This document shows positions 4,201 to 10,159 of a stretch of DNA of 64,000 nucleotides, piece after piece. Every line of letters begins with the position of its first letter. Positions within the stretch are counted from its first letter, which is position 1. Source of the stretch: Lachnospiraceae bacterium (GTDB lineage: Bacteria > Bacillota > Clostridia > Lachnospirales > Lachnospiraceae); contig JAFRRM010000029.1 in the NCBI GenBank assembly GCA_017428105.1, positions 1 to 64,000 on the forward strand, read 5' to 3'. Made by a program: the position numbers and the translations under genes. Below the pieces are notes generated by a model, which saw only the letters and a program-made list of their open reading frames with translations, was not told where the DNA came from and made no database searches.

Positions 4201-6707
4201 GAAGACCGGGCCGGCGGAGCGATTGACCAGGGCGAAGCGGATGCCGGCAAGACTGCCGCCCCCCTGGGCCTGGCCGGCGCCCAGATCGGCGTCGTATTTG
4301 AACAGCTGCGGAGGCTCGGGGGCGGCGGGCTCGTTCTCGAAGATCTCCCCGTCCGGGCCGGCGGCTTCGACGATGCAGCCTTCCTCCGCGAGAGTCACGG
4401 TGTAATGCGTGTCGTGCCAGAGATAGGAGGGGTTGGCCATTTCGCTTGTGCCGCGGATGAGTTCCTGGCCGATGACGGCGGTGTCGTCGATCCGCAGTTC
4501 CGCCGCTTCATAGGTCCCGAGAGCCAGGGCGCGGGCGGAAGAGGAGGCCCTGCCGGTCTCATCCGCGGTCAGGACTAGAGCGACGGCACCGGGCGGGATG
4601 ATCGTCCCGTCGGGGAGCGGCACGGCTTCTTCGGAGCGGTTGATCACGGCGAAACGGATCTCGGCGAAGGAGGCGTCTCCCTGCGGGATGGCGCCGGTGC
4701 GGCTGTCGCGTTTGGTGACGGAAAGGCCGCCGCGGAGGAAAATGTTTTCCGCCGTGACGGTGATGGCCTCGTGAGCACTGTCCAGGATCACCGGGTTCGG
4801 GGCGATCGTTCCGGGGCGGAAGAGCGCGGAGCGGGGGTCGGCCGGCTCCTCGGTGACGGTGTAGCCGTCCGCGTCGGAGAAGGGGACGGCCTCAAAGGCG
4901 GCCAGACCGTTTTCGTCGGTCACGGCAGTCAGTTCCACGGACTCTCCCAGGAGGGAGCGGCCCTGCAGACGGAAGACAAAGCCGGCGGGGACGATCCCGG
5001 GCTCAGGAGCGCCGTCCGCGGTGACCACGTGCTTTTCGACGGTGACGGAGCCTCTCTGAACGGAATTGACGACGGTGCCGAGGTCGTAAGTCGTGCCGGC
5101 ATCGCCGGTAATGGTGACCGGCCGGCCGGGCGCCGCGAAGGAAGCGTCCATCTGATAGCCGGCGGGAACGAAGGTCTCGATCAGGACGGCTTCCGTACCG
5201 GCGGGGATGTCCGTCCACACGATCTCGCCGCGGCTGTCGGTGGTCTTTTCATGATCTGTTTCCTCGTAGCGGAGATTGAAGCGGACGCCGGCGAGCGGGG
5301 CGCCAGCGTCGTCGGTCTTCTTCAGACGGGCGCTGACCAGGGAATGGTTCGTGACCGTGCCGAGATCGTAGGTGAAGCGGTCGTCCAGCTCGACGGTGAG
5401 CGCCATGCCGTCCCCGCTATAGGCCGGGTCGGGCCGGTATCTGCCGTCGGGGACAGAGACTTCGATCAGGCGGGCGGCGGTGCCGGAGAGGATCCCGGTC
5501 CAGGCGATGCGTCCGTCGGCGTCCGTGGTCTGCCGGTGGCTCTCCCCGTCATATTTCAGATCAAAGACGACGCCTGCGACGGGCCGGCCGTTCTCGTCGG
5601 CCTTCTGCAGGGTGACGCTCCCGCGGCGGACGTTGGTAACGGTGCCGAGGTCGAAAACAGTGTCCGGATCGCCCCGAAGCGTTACGCTTTGGCCGTCCGG
5701 GGCCTGATAAGCCGGATCGATCTCATAGCGGCCGTCTGGGACGGAGACTTCGATCAGACGGGCGGGGATGCCGCTTTTGGCCCAGGGGATGCCGGACCAG
5801 GAGGCGAGGCCATTGGCGTCGGTGACGGCCCGGTGGTCCGTGCCGTCATAGATCAGGCTGAAAACGACGCCTGCGATGGGACAGCCCCGGTCATCGGTCT
5901 TTCTCACGGAAGCCTGCAGATATTTTGCCGCGGCCCGGTCCGAGACGGTGCCGGCCGGCTTCGCGGTGCCGGCTTCGGCGTCCTCGGCAGAAACGCTCAC
6001 GGACAGGACGTTTTCGGTCCACAGGAAGTGATCGTTGGCCAGCAGGGAGGTGCCGAGTTTCCCGGAACCTTCATATCGGTCGCCGGGGACGATCGACGCG
6101 TCCCGGCGCAGTTCGCAGATCAGATAGGAGCCGGCCGGATAATTCTTCCCGGTGGTGAGCGCGGCGGAACTGCCGGATGCGCCGGAGACGGTCAGGATCT
6201 CCGTGACGCAGCCCGGGGCACGGTCCGTGCCGCCGACGGTCACAGGGGCGGCGGAAGCGTTCACGACGGCAAAACGGATGCCATTCAGGGAAGCGCCGGG
6301 CGGAATGTCGCCCGCTGCCTTTTTGTTGACGGACAGGGCGATCTTCTGGGGCTGTTCGGCGGAGAGAATCTCCAGATCCTCCGCTTCGTTTTCCTGGTTC
6401 CAGCGGCCCTTGTCCGCATGGATGAAACCGTCGGAGCCGATCGTGAAGCGGACGGTATGGACCGAGGGATCCAGCGCGTAGCCGGCCGGAGCGGCGGTCT
6501 CCCGCATGGTCAGCGTGCCGGCCGGAAAGCCGGGCTTGCCGGAGGCGTCGGTCAGCAGGGCGGGGCCGGAGACTTTCCAGGGATCGCGGTAATAGACGAA
6601 GCCGTCGGCGTCCGTTTTGAAGGTCCAGACCGTGACGGCGCCGTCTTCCGCGGTGAATTTCATTTCGTACTGTGCATCGGCCAGGGAGAGGGCTCCCTGC
6701 GCGCTTC
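1258..6707 (-). CDS. VaFE/SpaA-type surface adhesin, 3' part of an intron-split gene
   Basis: Open frame of about 1800 residues after the first ATG at 6663. The frame is also open upstream to 6705, and those extra codons (AQGALSLADAQYE) are the conserved beginning of a SpaA/Cna-B domain, so the ATG is not the true N-terminus. Approximate order from that ATG: SpaA domain ending in MRETAAPAGY (1-70); repeated 'FAVVN/FAVIN/FALVN' beta domains (from about 105, 650 and 790); three Cna_B-like repeats ending in DLGTVTN (250-535); a VaFE-like domain (about 1086-1208); four DUF11-like 'SPANG..GETVRYR' repeats (1208-1680); a MucBP-like strand region VTVIYVDEDG (about 1681); a proline-rich segment; and a sorting signal PPMGDTESLG, a hydrophobic helix and an RRKRR tail. 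It is the stalk of a wall-anchored adhesin. Its signal peptide and thioester head lie at 8631-9755, separated by the group II intron. Confidence 0.85.
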
Positions 6708-6772
6708 ATAGCCGGAGGTTATGGGTTCCCTCCGGCGCACACCCGGCGTGCGGCTTTCACCGCACCGGGCGT
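6708..6772 (-). ncRNA. Group II intron domains V and VI with 3' splice site
   Basis: Domain V (6772 down to 6739) folds as an 8-bp lower helix ACGCCCGG/CCGGGTGT, a 2-nt CG bulge on the 3' side, a 6-bp upper helix TGCGGT/GCCGCA and a GAAA tetraloop: 34 nt in all, the family length. The catalytic triad position reads CGC. Domain VI (6736-6711) pairs GCCGGAGG with CCTCCGGC around an ATAA-containing loop. The exon resumes at 6707 with GAAGCGCGCAG. I could not place a bulged branch-point A at the usual 7-8 nt from the end. Confidence 0.85.
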
Positions 6773-6808
6773 TCAGCCATTGAAATGGAGAAAGGAACAA
6801 GGCGGGGG

Positions 6809-7930
6809 TCATTCTTCCGCACCGCAGCGGGAGCATCTCCGGATCTCCGCGGTCTCTTCCGGAATGATCACGGGGCTGTATTCCTCGTCATGGCGGATGA
6901 CCGCGTATTCCGCGGGATGCTCGATGACGCCGATGACCACGAGGGCGGAGTACGTGCGGTCGCTCTCGCCCCGCAGGGCGTGCTCCTTCGCGTGCTGTGC
7001 GTCCCATTCCAGGCCTTCTTCGGTCCAGCGGCCGTCCGCGTCCAGAAGGCCGTGCTCACGGCCGTAAACGGTCTGATCCATGCCGCAGCCCTCGCAGAAC
7101 CAGTGCATTTCCGTCACTTCTTCGGTCCGGGCTTCCTGCAGGAGGATCCGCTCGTCCCACGCGTCCTGCGTCTTGACGTACTCGATCCCGGCTTCGCGGA
7201 TCACGACGGTCTCCGTGCACCAGTCATGCCCCGTGGCCGGGATCGGACGGGTCTCTGAGGCACGGCAGACGGAGCAGGTGCGGGTCTCGGCGCCTGCGGC
7301 GGTGCAGGAGGGGGCTGCGGTCACGGTCCAGGGGCCGAAGCGGTGCTCGTGGACGGTGGCGGAAGGGAGCGCGGCCGTGGATGACGGGGCGGCTGCCGAG
7401 GCGGTCGTCTTCGGTTCGGCCCCTGCGGTCGTCGGCGGAGCAGTCGGTGCCGCGGTCGTCGGCGGAGCAGTTTGCGCTGCGGCTGTCGGCGGAGCGGTTT
7501 GCGCTTCCACTGCTGATGAAGTGCTTGGAGAAGCGGAAGTCTGTGATGCGGCCGGCGCAGCGGCTGACGGAAGACCGGCCGGTACGGAAGACGCCGCTGA
7601 AGCAGCAGAAACTGCGGAAGACGGGGCGCTCTGCGATTCGGCCGAATTTTCGGAAGGGGAGAGAAAAGAATAGATCGTTCCGGAAATATCCGGATAAGTG
7701 GTTCGGAATGAAGGAATATCAGATAAATTTACTGCAAAAGTGGATGACGAAGATTCGCAGACCGTTTCCGCTTCGGAACTCTGTCCCGCGGGTTTCCGCC
7801 CGATCCCGCATCCTCTGACGGCCAGCGCCAGCAGCAGAAGGATCAGGCCTGCCGGCGTGACCGCGGCGGCCTTGAGCACGACGGACTCCCGTTCCGCGTC
7901 TTTTCTTTCATTCCGTTTGCTTCCCTTCAT
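6809..7930 (-). CDS. Membrane-anchored Ser/Ala/Thr-rich protein with CxxC zinc-ribbon-like tail (intron cargo)
   Basis: About 373 residues from the ATG at 7930, which has GGAGGAGG 8 nt upstream; the alternative ATG at 7966 lies upstream of that site and is less likely. It has a basic N-terminus, one membrane helix or uncleaved signal (PAGLILLLLALAV), then a long low-complexity stalk of S, A, P and T with APPTTA-like repeats. The C-terminal part has three CxxC pairs (CSVC, CEGC, CSRC) and the sequence RPIPATGHDW, which resembles the surface-protein repeat that ends in 'PATGH'. It lies wholly inside the intron at the domain IV position and overlaps the upstream small gene by 23 nt. No similarity to intron maturases is visible. 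Function unknown; a cell-surface protein is an inference. Confidence 0.7.
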   Translation of the reverse strand: MKGSKRNERKDAERESVVLKAAAVTPAGLILLLLALAVRGCGIGRKPAGQSSEAETVCESSSSTFAVNLSDIPSFRTTYPDISGTIYSFLSPSENSAESQSAPSSAVSAASAASSVPAGLPSAAAPAASQTSASPSTSSAVEAQTAPPTAAAQTAPPTTAAPTAPPTTAGAEPKTTASAAAPSSTAALPSATVHEHRFGPWTVTAAPSCTAAGAETRTCSVCRASETRPIPATGHDWCTETVVIREAGIEYVKTQDAWDERILLQEARTEEVTEMHWFCEGCGMDQTVYGREHGLLDADGRWTEEGLEWDAQHAKEHALRGESDRTYSALVVIGVIEHPAEYAVIRHDEEYSPVIIPEETAEIRRCSRCGAEE

Positions 7931-8144
7931 GATCTTTTTCCTCCTCCTTTTTCTTTTTCTTTTCATACAGCTTCCGGATCCGCACGCCCGGCGGATCCTT
8001 CCAGCGTTCCTTTTTGCCGCTGACCGGCGGAATGCTGCGGATCAGCGCGCGGGGATCCAGCCCCAGTTCCTGTGCCATGGCCAGTTCTTCCGGGCTCAGG
8101 CGGCAGCGGTGCCGGGCTTCCCGCCAGGTCGGTTCCTTTTTCAT
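7908..8144 (-). CDS. Small basic conserved hypothetical protein (intron cargo)
   Basis: A 78-residue protein from the ATG at 8144, preceded by AAAGGA. The core WREARHRCRLSPEELAMAQE, then LGLDP, SIPP, WKDPP and LYEKK, matches a widespread small bacterial family of unknown function that typically reads W..AR...LS...V.MA.ELG..P..L......WK.P....I..LY. The C-terminus is a highly charged K/E run. It is the first gene inside the intron, on the intron-sense strand, and its 3' end contains the ribosome binding site of the next gene. Longer in-frame starts upstream fall in intron RNA domains and are unlikely. Recognition of the family is from memory. Confidence 0.65.
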   Translation of the reverse strand: MKKEPTWREARHRCRLSPEELAMAQELGLDPRALIRSIPPVSGKKERWKDPPGVRIRKLYEKKKKKEEEKDHEGKQTE

Positions 8145-8651
8145 GTCGTTCCTTTGTTCAATGGCTCCCGGGCTGTTCCTCCCGCCTTCATTGCAAAGGC
8201 GATCGTCAGTCGTGCCCGGGGCTCTCAGTCCGGTCCCTTCCGGAAACCGGACCTTTCCCTGTTCCGGTCCCGCGGTCATGCGGTGCGTTTAGGTGCCTTC
8301 CCCGGTCCGCACGGACGTCCGGCCGAAAGCCGGAGAGGAGTTTCACGAGGATGGGCCGCTACTCGTCCTCCCGTGCGGCCTGCCGTTTCCGGCAGGGTCC
8401 CGCCGGTGTATCCGAAGGTTCGTCAGGTCCCGCCGCACAATAGCGGGATCATTCTCACCGTGCGCATCGGAAGCCGGTCCGCCCGTCCGTGCCGTCAGGT
8501 TTAGGCCGGGCATTCCCCGTCGCCGCGCTTTGCCGTCCGGGTCACCCCGTTTTGGCAGCGGCCAAGGCCGGAGGATCGCTCCTCCCCGCAGGATCAGTTC
8601 GCTTGTCATAAGCGGCGCTTCCTGTGGATTTCAAAGCGCAACGGGTCGCAC
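8145..8651 (-). other. Group II intron 5' RNA domains (I-III)
   Basis: A 507-nt stretch without a convincing gene, rich in short inverted repeats when read on the minus strand. It begins GTGCGACCC at 8651. Segments such as GAACCTTCGGATACACCGG and CTCGTGAAACTCC resemble the conserved GGTATAC.ACCG and CGTGAAACT blocks seen in domain I of other bacterial group II introns. I take it as the structured 5' half of the intron. Open frames crossing it lack ribosome binding sites. Confidence 0.65.
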
Positions 8652-9755
8652 GTCATCCTGGGACTGGGCATCCTTCTTCTGCAGGAGGATGCCGACGGGG
8701 TCATAGGGCAGCGGGGCGGACTTGGCCTTCACGTACCCTTTCAGCGTATCGGTCACCTGCTCGCCGGTCAGCGTGATGACGGCCTGGGGCGGTTCGCCGT
8801 AACTGGCCGCCCGGTCCGTCCAGACCACGAACTGCGGTGTGGTGATGGTGCGCGAGGCGGCGACCGTCACGCCGCCGGGGATCGCCCGGGAGGAGGTGAT
8901 CTTCAGGACATTGCCGCTCTTCACGGCGGTGACGGCGGGATCGGATGCCGTGAAAGCAAATCCGTCCAGCACCCCGTTGGCATCCGTCAGGGAAGCCGTG
9001 TACTGCGAGCCGTTCTTCGCCAGGTCCACCACCTGTGCCTCCGCTTCCTTCCGGTTCATGAAGGAGGGGATGGCGGGGTTGACCAGGGCGGTTTTGACGG
9101 CAGTCACGATGCTGTCGTACTCGCTGCCGATCCGGCTGAGGCTGGGGCAGGAGGGGTTCAGGACCTCCCGGACCGCGTTCCTGCCGGAGGGCGGCGCGAC
9201 GTGGCTGAAGTCCGCATCGCGTTCTCCCACGATGGTTTCCCAGATCAGGATCTGGGTGGCGTACCACTTGCTGAGGATGCTGCGGTCGAAATCGGCGGGG
9301 ATGTAGTAGCCGCTGCCGTCGGCGGTCTGCTGCACTTCGATCGGGCCGTCATACCCCTGCAGCATGACCTGGCCGAGCAGAAATTTGGTCACGTCCGGGG
9401 GAATGGTCTCGTTCAGGCTCTCCGGGTATCCGTTCCAGTAATCGTCCCGGGCGATCCGGTCCACGGCGGTGCTGGCGCCCAGGGAGACGCCCGGCTCGAT
9501 GCAGTAGGCCGCCGACCCGTTCATGACGAAGACGGTGAAGGTGCTGCTCCTGCCCAGCTGCCAGCCGCTCATGAGTTCCAGGTCTTTCGGCCTGCCCCAG
9601 CTGCTGTCGGCAGCGCCCCATTCGTTTAAGGCCAGATAGGGGGTGATCAGCGTGCCGCCGGCCGCGCGGGCGGGCAGCGGGATTCGGAAGATCCCGGCAG
9701 TCAGAAGCAGGGCTGCCAGCAGGGCGCCGATGCGTCGGACTCGTGTGTGAAACAT
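8631..9755 (-). CDS. Surface adhesin N-terminal part: signal peptide and thioester domain (5' exon)
   Basis: The open frame has 374 codons, but only codons up to the GAC at 8652-8654 are exon. The last six (VRPVAL) plus the stop are intron sequence. It begins with a signal peptide (ALLAALLLTAGIF ... ARA). AYCIEPG is the cysteine context of a TIE/thioester adhesion domain, followed by WYATQILIWETI, also typical of that domain. It ends in the start of a SpaA repeat, LLQKKDAQSQDD. The start ATG at 9755 is preceded by GAAAGGAG. Thioester domains form covalent bonds to host amines. The stalk and anchor of this protein are encoded at 1258-6707 beyond the intron. Without splicing the product would be a secreted, unanchored head. 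Confidence 0.85.
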   Translation of the reverse strand: MFHTRVRRIGALLAALLLTAGIFRIPLPARAAGGTLITPYLALNEWGAADSSWGRPKDLELMSGWQLGRSSTFTVFVMNGSAAYCIEPGVSLGASTAVDRIARDDYWNGYPESLNETIPPDVTKFLLGQVMLQGYDGPIEVQQTADGSGYYIPADFDRSILSKWYATQILIWETIVGERDADFSHVAPPSGRNAVREVLNPSCPSLSRIGSEYDSIVTAVKTALVNPAIPSFMNRKEAEAQVVDLAKNGSQYTASLTDANGVLDGFAFTASDPAVTAVKSGNVLKITSSRAIPGGVTVAASRTITTPQFVVWTDRAASYGEPPQAVITLTGEQVTDTLKGYVKAKSAPLPYDPVGILLQKKDAQSQDDVRPVAL

Positions 9756-10159
9756 GCTTTTTTCTCCTTTCTCATCATAAGAAAATGTGGCGGGGACCTG
9801 AAATGCGCCATGCCCCGGCGTCCCCGGCCGGGAAGGCTTATATATCCATGAACCCGCACGGGGCGGGAGAATAACCGAAGGAGTACGGATAACGGAAGAG
9901 AAGCGGAAAAGACGGGAAACGGCCGGGCCGGAGCCGCGGCGGAATAAGAAGGATGGCGTGATTTACGGGGATGATGGACGGATCTGCTTTTTTACGGTAA
10001 GCCGGGCCGGCGGGTTTTGCAACTGCGATTTACTGCATTTTATCCACAATTCCGGCATTCCTCCTTCGTCCGGGAGACCGTAAGCGGAAGGCACCGGAAA
10101 AATCTTTGAAAATCATGCAACAGGCGGCAAGGAAAATGAAAAAGTTCACAAAAAAGCGG
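9756..10159. other. Intergenic region between divergent adhesin and rpmF
   Basis: About 400 nt with no supported gene. The adhesin promoter must lie here on the minus strand. An A/T-rich stretch near 9836-9850 (tatatatcc) could hold a -10, but I see no convincing -35. Confidence 0.5.

Follow-up and report, generated by a model that had tools for sequence, protein, structure and literature searches.

In the window, that is, the whole 64,000-nt stretch of DNA that was analyzed, two long reading frames on the minus strand are separated by a group II intron (Table 1). The upstream frame (exon 1) encodes a secreted head with the CIEPG and TQILIWE motifs, as in thioester adhesins; the downstream frame (exon 2) encodes the stalk of a large surface protein and has neither a start codon nor a signal peptide of its own. 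Two additional open reading frames lie within intron domain IV, neither of which encodes a reverse transcriptase (RT). A cluster of three tRNA genes (positions 7-277 of the window) adjoins the end of the adhesin locus and is a possible landing site for a variable region.

Table 1. Features of the intron-containing adhesin locus (positions in the window)
Feature	Position	Strand	Remarks
Exon 1, signal peptide and head (CIEPG, TQILIWE thioester-type motifs)	8654..9755	-	Ends in first strand of SpaA-like domain
Exon 2, 1815 codons after junction codon	1258..6707	-	SpaA, VaFE/T-Q ester, DUF7507 repeats, MucBP, PPMGD-type anchor, TM segment, basic tail
Group II intron, predicted ends	6708..8653	-	Conserved GTGCG motif from 8651
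Candidate IBS2, GTCCC	8660..8664	-	Exon -13..-9; 5/5 with GGGAC
IBS1, AGGATG	8654..8659	-	Exon -8..-3 relative to GTGCG; pairs with EBS1
Domain I first helix, GCGCTT/AAGCGC	8615..8639	-	GTACTG/CAGTAC in G211, GAGCAG/CTGCTC in G202
Candidate EBS2, GGGAC	8427..8431	-	Pairs with GTCCC 8660..8664
EBS1, CATCCT	8348..8353	-	Within AGTA-type hairpin loop
Domain III-like helix	8167..8220	-	CCCGGGC/GCCCGGG here, CTTAGTC/GACTAAG in G211
Domain IV stem, 5' arm	8158..8165	-	GCCATTGA/TCAATGGC; GTCACCG/CGGTGAC in G202
Domain IV ORF 1, 78-aa basic helical protein	7908..8144	-	In all five complete introns
Domain IV ORF 2, up to 385 aa	6809..7966	-	Probable start ATG 7930 behind AGGAGG
Domain IV stem, 3' arm	6776..6783	-	Pairs with 5' arm 8158..8165
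Domain V, 34 nt: CGC triad, GAAA loop, CG bulge	6739..6772	-	Identical in 6/6 loci
Domain VI, 8-bp helix	6711..6736	-	No bulged A 7-8 nt from 3' end

The earlier note on this DNA had proposed a group II intron on the strength of a 34-nt domain V with a GAAA tetraloop and a CG bulge, a domain VI hairpin, a GTGCG start and a TAT end (6710-6708), all of which are indeed present. The Rfam covariance search (2.6 kb searched) places domain V/VI at 6774-6711 of the minus strand with the model RF00029 (39.2 bits, E 1.4e-5); because this score falls just under the 40-bit cut-off, domain V is absent from the list produced by a scan of the whole window at the gathering threshold. The homologous introns of two related genomes, G202 and G211, score above the cut-off. 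In the 2.26-Mb genome that includes the window (G000), this is the single domain V-type match, and the other Rfam models, including those for group II domains I-IV, gave no match to the intron in the 2.6 kb searched. Four of the five available 5' ends retain an unaltered GTGCG motif, and the intron shows the 5' GUGYG and 3' AY ends of this class.

Five further genomes of the genus (G204, G205, G211, G202 and G212) contain the same intron, always at the same head/SpaA junction; three of them (G211, G202 and G212) were added by a domain V search of 16 genus genomes. Five loci, including the one described here, are complete, and that of G212 is cut by a contig end, leaving the 3' part only. The interrupted gene encodes a large surface protein at all loci, and the intron follows the secreted head and precedes the first SpaA-like domain. 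In two other species, represented by G205 and G204, exon 1 is present at 81% amino acid identity and its frame likewise ends just inside the intron. Across 85,000 species genomes, five records contain a domain V of exactly this sequence, and all are Lachnospiraceae MAGs from the rumen or foregut. A covariance model of the intron 5' end (R1) detected only G000 and G202 and yielded no matches outside the genus among 397 family genomes, of which 157 contain ordinary domain V matches; plasmid, phage and viral collections contain no match to the intron. One DNA match (L003, in G028) was dismissed as a chance match within a response-regulator gene. A MAG artefact was rejected as well, given that goat, buffalo and RUG sets all include MAGs with the intron. 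Conservation of the intron extends to at least five species within a genus of rumen Lachnospiraceae. We found no paper on this intron in the open-access literature searched.

Comparison of the homologs reveals extensive compensatory change. The first 52 nt of the intron comprise two helices in which all 11 pairs are kept in every row of the alignment with letters, with compensatory (double) changes in eight of the 11, a number that none of 500 shuffles reached; when the structure is slid along the alignment, the paired fraction drops to 23-67%. The first helix of domain I is 100% paired, with double changes in four of the six pairs, and such changes also occur in further helices of domains I, III and IV. 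Domains I to IV are predicted in order, with covarying helices, in all five complete introns. The ribozyme of G000 is 91-92% identical to those of the two close species in its 5' part and 99-100% identical in its 3' part, at an exon dS of 0.49-0.63. In domain VI, the 8-bp helix is uninterrupted and contains no branch-point A bulge. The G202 intron begins with GGGCG in place of GTGCG (L064:7109), has a weak or degenerate domain VI near 8997-9021 and carries an A 8 nt from its 3' terminus; these features could reflect decay or a different architecture. Taken together, the RF00029 match, the homologs and the covariation demonstrate that the group II intron in this adhesin gene is real, as the note had claimed, and its ribozyme is probably still competent for splicing.

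No intron-encoded protein of the RT type (IEP) is encoded in domain IV, the loop of which is 1372 nt long here and 1.3-2.5 kb across the introns. The GIIM maturase domain (PF08388) was detected in none of the 16 genus genomes, with positive controls. Because the G000 MAG is 96% complete, the absence of an IEP or maturase from the entire genome is likely rather than certain. The single RT of this genome (L063; G000:C35:43041-43664) belongs to the UG26 family (DRT-type model, PADLOC E 1e-171). An RT acting in trans was rejected because the RT of G000 is of the UG26 type, RVT_1 matches occur in each of the 16 genomes whether or not the intron is present, and a maturase domain is lacking. An intron devoid of an IEP needs either a host factor or robust self-splicing.

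The two proteins that are encoded in domain IV are conserved along with the intron. The homologs of the short one (67-78 aa) are 61-83% identical within the G000/G204/G205/G211 group and 46% identical in G202; this protein showed no Pfam or NCBIfam match, and a fold search yielded nothing significant. Small, basic, unnamed proteins of the same family are encoded elsewhere in Lachnospiraceae (L005, L006, L007 and L008), in one case (L007) beside VirB4/TraE-like genes. A role of the small protein as an intron-specific factor was discarded because these relatives have no domain V within their 1.5-kb flanks. The long protein (344-452 aa in the five complete introns) is predicted to be membrane-anchored and to consist of a Ser/Thr/Pro-rich linker and a C-terminal part with conserved His, Trp and Cys residues. 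Domain IV of the G211 intron additionally carries a MazE-like/PIN-domain pair of the toxin-antitoxin type (L062:8051-8795, minus strand). When compared with G000 at dS values of 0.4-0.67, the two domain IV frames common to the complete introns and both exons show ω values of approximately 0.18-0.26: 0.24-0.26 for the short protein, approximately 0.18-0.24 for the C-terminal part of the long one, approximately 0.23-0.26 for exon 1 and approximately 0.24 for exon 2. Judging from these ratios, both non-RT genes of domain IV, the long one in its C-terminal part, are under purifying selection, as are the frames of the head and the stalk. Since ω is approximately 0.23-0.26 in both exons, the stalk appears to be translated, notwithstanding the lack of its own signal peptide.

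The separation of a secreted head from a wall-anchored stalk by the intron, another claim of the note, is supported by the homologs, the covariation and the selection on both frames. The CIEPG motif of the proposed thioester head is present, but the match of Pfam TED to this head is weak and below the cut-off (E 0.048); the AlphaFold model of the head (mean pLDDT 37.5) is unusable. The proposal that the two flanking frames contain halves of one SpaA domain appears right by eye but is not proved by Pfam SpaA, which scores the exon 2 half alone at 33.0 bits and the joined sequence at 32.9 bits and hence does not discriminate between them. A consensus scan of the minus strand from 6400 to 10100, which is a weak method, revealed no promoter or terminator and therefore gives no indication that head and stalk are transcribed separately.

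In one respect, the original description of the intron has to be revised. Exon 1 ends on a full codon before GTGCG, whereas exon 2 after TAT starts at the second codon position, so that the textbook join of GTGCG...TAT preserves the frame in none of the five complete loci. Translation across it would terminate 15 aa downstream in G000 and 6-51 aa downstream in the remaining loci; the exon 2 phase in G212 is the same. Splicing at the boundaries originally given would therefore not produce an adhesin, and the true 5' splice site would have to lie upstream. A 5' site at -2, -5 or -8 (or at +1) relative to GTGCG restores the frame in every complete locus, and with the -2 join, the junction codon is Gly in all five. 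In G000, this join combines 1102 and 5450 nt into 2183 codons and a stop; the spliced adhesin of about 2180 residues that the note had envisaged would be recovered with the -2 site, and with the ends as first described it would be lost to the frameshift.

The pairing between exon and intron points to the same position. IBS1 and EBS1 are AGGATG/CATCCT in G000, G204 and G205, CAGATG/CATCTG in G211 and GCGACG/CGTTGC, with one G-U pair, in G202 (CGTATC, an earlier choice of EBS1 in G202, was replaced by CGTTGC after a wobble-aware scan). In all of them, IBS1 occupies exon positions -8..-3, EBS1 is in the same hairpin loop, and the pairing ends 3 nt before GTGCG. A scan of 905 exon-intron offsets found a single offset with 6/6 pairing in all three lineages in that loop; under an empirical null, with only three independent lineages and a loop window that was fixed after the match was first seen, the marginal rates multiply to 7e-6, or about 1e-4 for the 20 offsets near the boundary. 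Other group II introns are cleaved flush with EBS1. If this holds here, the 5' splice site is most likely 8654|8653, 2 nt upstream of GTGCG, because the EBS1-IBS1 pairing ends there. A second pairing, at -13..-9, involves GTCCC/GGGAC (5/5) here, GACAG/CTGTC in G202 and four of five positions in G211, and is a candidate IBS2-EBS2 interaction.

Two other positions of the 5' splice site have to be weighed against this one. The group II intron C.te.I1 of Clostridium tetani (McNeil, Simon and Zimmerly, PMC3919590), which lacks an IEP and resides in a surface protein gene, has its 5' site shifted by 8 nt, and the exact equivalent of that shift was the solution that we considered first and demoted after the IBS1/EBS1 scan. 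A site 8 nt upstream of GTGCG would also restore the frame in all five loci, and GTCCC/GGGAC, which would then be IBS1-EBS1, pairs at 5/5 positions, as does GACAG/CTGTC. EBS2 is nevertheless the better fit, both for the 4/5 pairing in G211 and for the location of the intron partner before the AGTA-type hairpin; the 6-bp pairing that covaries and involves the hairpin loop stops at -3; and C.te.I1 is reported to have no EBS2, whereas a candidate for it exists here. The -8 site thus seems rather unlikely. Splicing at the canonical GTGCG, which would append a short frameshifted tail to the head and never yield the full adhesin, agrees with the preservation of this motif at the 5' end of four of five introns and with the fact that most group II introns splice at GUGYG (PMC4424553). 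Given that EBS1-IBS1 is not flush with GTGCG, that the same phase offset is kept at every locus and that exon 2 is conserved as a protein despite having no start or signal peptide of its own, we regard canonical splicing as very improbable.

The lack of both an IEP and a branch-point A could also indicate that the intron is dead and the gene split, with only the head being used or the halves functioning as separate proteins. This possibility appears quite remote because compensatory changes maintain both the helices and the intron-exon pairing, and exon 2 has kept an uninterrupted frame, ranging from 1495 to more than 2100 codons across the loci, with ω close to 0.24. A regulated switch, akin to the on/off switch for surface attachment that the note had suggested, in which the unspliced RNA would supply the secreted head and the domain IV proteins and the spliced RNA the anchored adhesin, with the 78-aa protein as a regulator or splicing factor, is compatible with, and an extension of, the reading that we prefer. 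The presence of both domain IV frames, under purifying selection, in each of the five complete loci is in its favor; the occurrence of the 78-aa family away from introns and the lack of clear regulation in C.te.I1 under the tested conditions, with approximately 75-95% of the transcripts unspliced (PMC3919590), weigh against it, and we consider such a switch unlikely.

The explanation that probably accounts for these observations is that a group II intron without an RT or maturase, which is competent for splicing and no longer mobile, has been kept in an adhesin gene of rumen Lachnospiraceae, with the 5' site set at -2 by EBS1. Under this scenario, which we infer from comparative sequence analysis, EBS1 would pair with IBS1 and define the 5' site at 8654|8653, the 3' site would be TAT|G at 6708|6707, and ligation would fuse head and stalk in frame at the Gly codon, yielding a wall-anchored protein of 2183 aa. 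Splicing in vivo would probably be hydrolytic because domain VI has no bulged branch-point A. The unspliced RNA would give rise only to a secreted head of 374 aa and could also express the two non-RT proteins of domain IV.

The fixed intron boundary might have an additional consequence. The heads of G000 (8654-9755), G211 (L062:9656-10579) and G202 (L064:5036-7129) are unrelated except for the stretch beside the intron, where the G000 and G211 heads share 45 aa at 40% identity; the neighbor gene indicates that G211 has the intron at the same locus as G000. This pattern suggests that head modules have been replaced between lineages with the intron boundary kept. An intron-free allele at the orthologous locus was not found: in G201, G213, G209 and G202, the neighbor gene is located beside other genes. 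Intron-free relatives in G213 and G206 carry head and stalk in single frames (2354 and 2268 aa); they are not alleles because their heads are only 31-34% identical and they are located elsewhere. It is conceivable, albeit as a tentative reading that we would not expect to hold, that the intron has been domesticated as a post-transcriptional fork between a secreted head with two domain IV proteins and the full adhesin, the fixed boundary permitting head swaps in frame.

In a 2015 review, C.te.I1 figured as the sole known case of a bacterial group II intron in a genome devoid of IEPs (PMC4424553). A survey of representative genomes published in 2022 reported 281 IEP-less introns among 2,381 and required domains I-IV to lie within 1300 nt of domain V (PMC8919778). 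The intron described here, with a 1372-nt loop, was probably overlooked for this reason. Because an intron comparable to C.te.I1 has been retained, with compensatory changes, by five or more species, this type of element can be examined by comparison and no longer as an isolated case. Three questions become directly testable: whether bacteria can benefit from group II introns that only splice, to what extent EBS1-IBS1 alone sets the 5' site, and which functions non-RT proteins have within a bacterial group II intron.

The closest studied intron is C.te.I1. Both introns lack an IEP, in the intron as well as in the genome, and are hosted by surface protein genes; in both, use of GUGCG would not fuse the frames, whereas an upstream 5' site, which is predicted for the present intron, does. 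C.te.I1 splices hydrolytically in vitro, contains four copies of domains V and VI, has lost EBS2, and its 311-nt domain IV loop resembles no known protein (PMC3919590). The intron analyzed here differs in that the predicted shift is 2 nt rather than 8, EBS2 appears to be present, a single copy of domains V and VI leaves no alternative 3' exons, domain IV carries two protein genes, and the intron is found in several species rather than one. In fungal mitochondrial IIB1 introns of rRNA genes, 5' splicing takes place 1-33 nt upstream of GUGYG via an altered IBS1-EBS1 pairing (PMC4424553), and loss of the branch site has been reported for introns with shifted 5' sites that are spliced by hydrolysis (PMC4424553, PMC3919590). 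These fungal introns resemble the present one in the shifted 5' site, the lost branch site and a non-RT protein in domain IV (LAGLIDADG in the fungi); they differ in residing in organellar rRNA genes and in the loss of EBS2, and the domain IV proteins described here match no homing endonuclease. With B.a.I2 of Bacillus anthracis (as described in PMC3919590), the intron shares the property that only one possible junction fuses the flanking frames, although it is the 3' site that varies, by 4 nt, in B.a.I2, and the 5' site that is shifted here. Finally, like mobile bacterial group II introns, it comprises ribozyme domains I-VI with ORFs in domain IV, and unlike them, it has neither an RT nor a maturase and is present in one copy per genome at a fixed insertion site.
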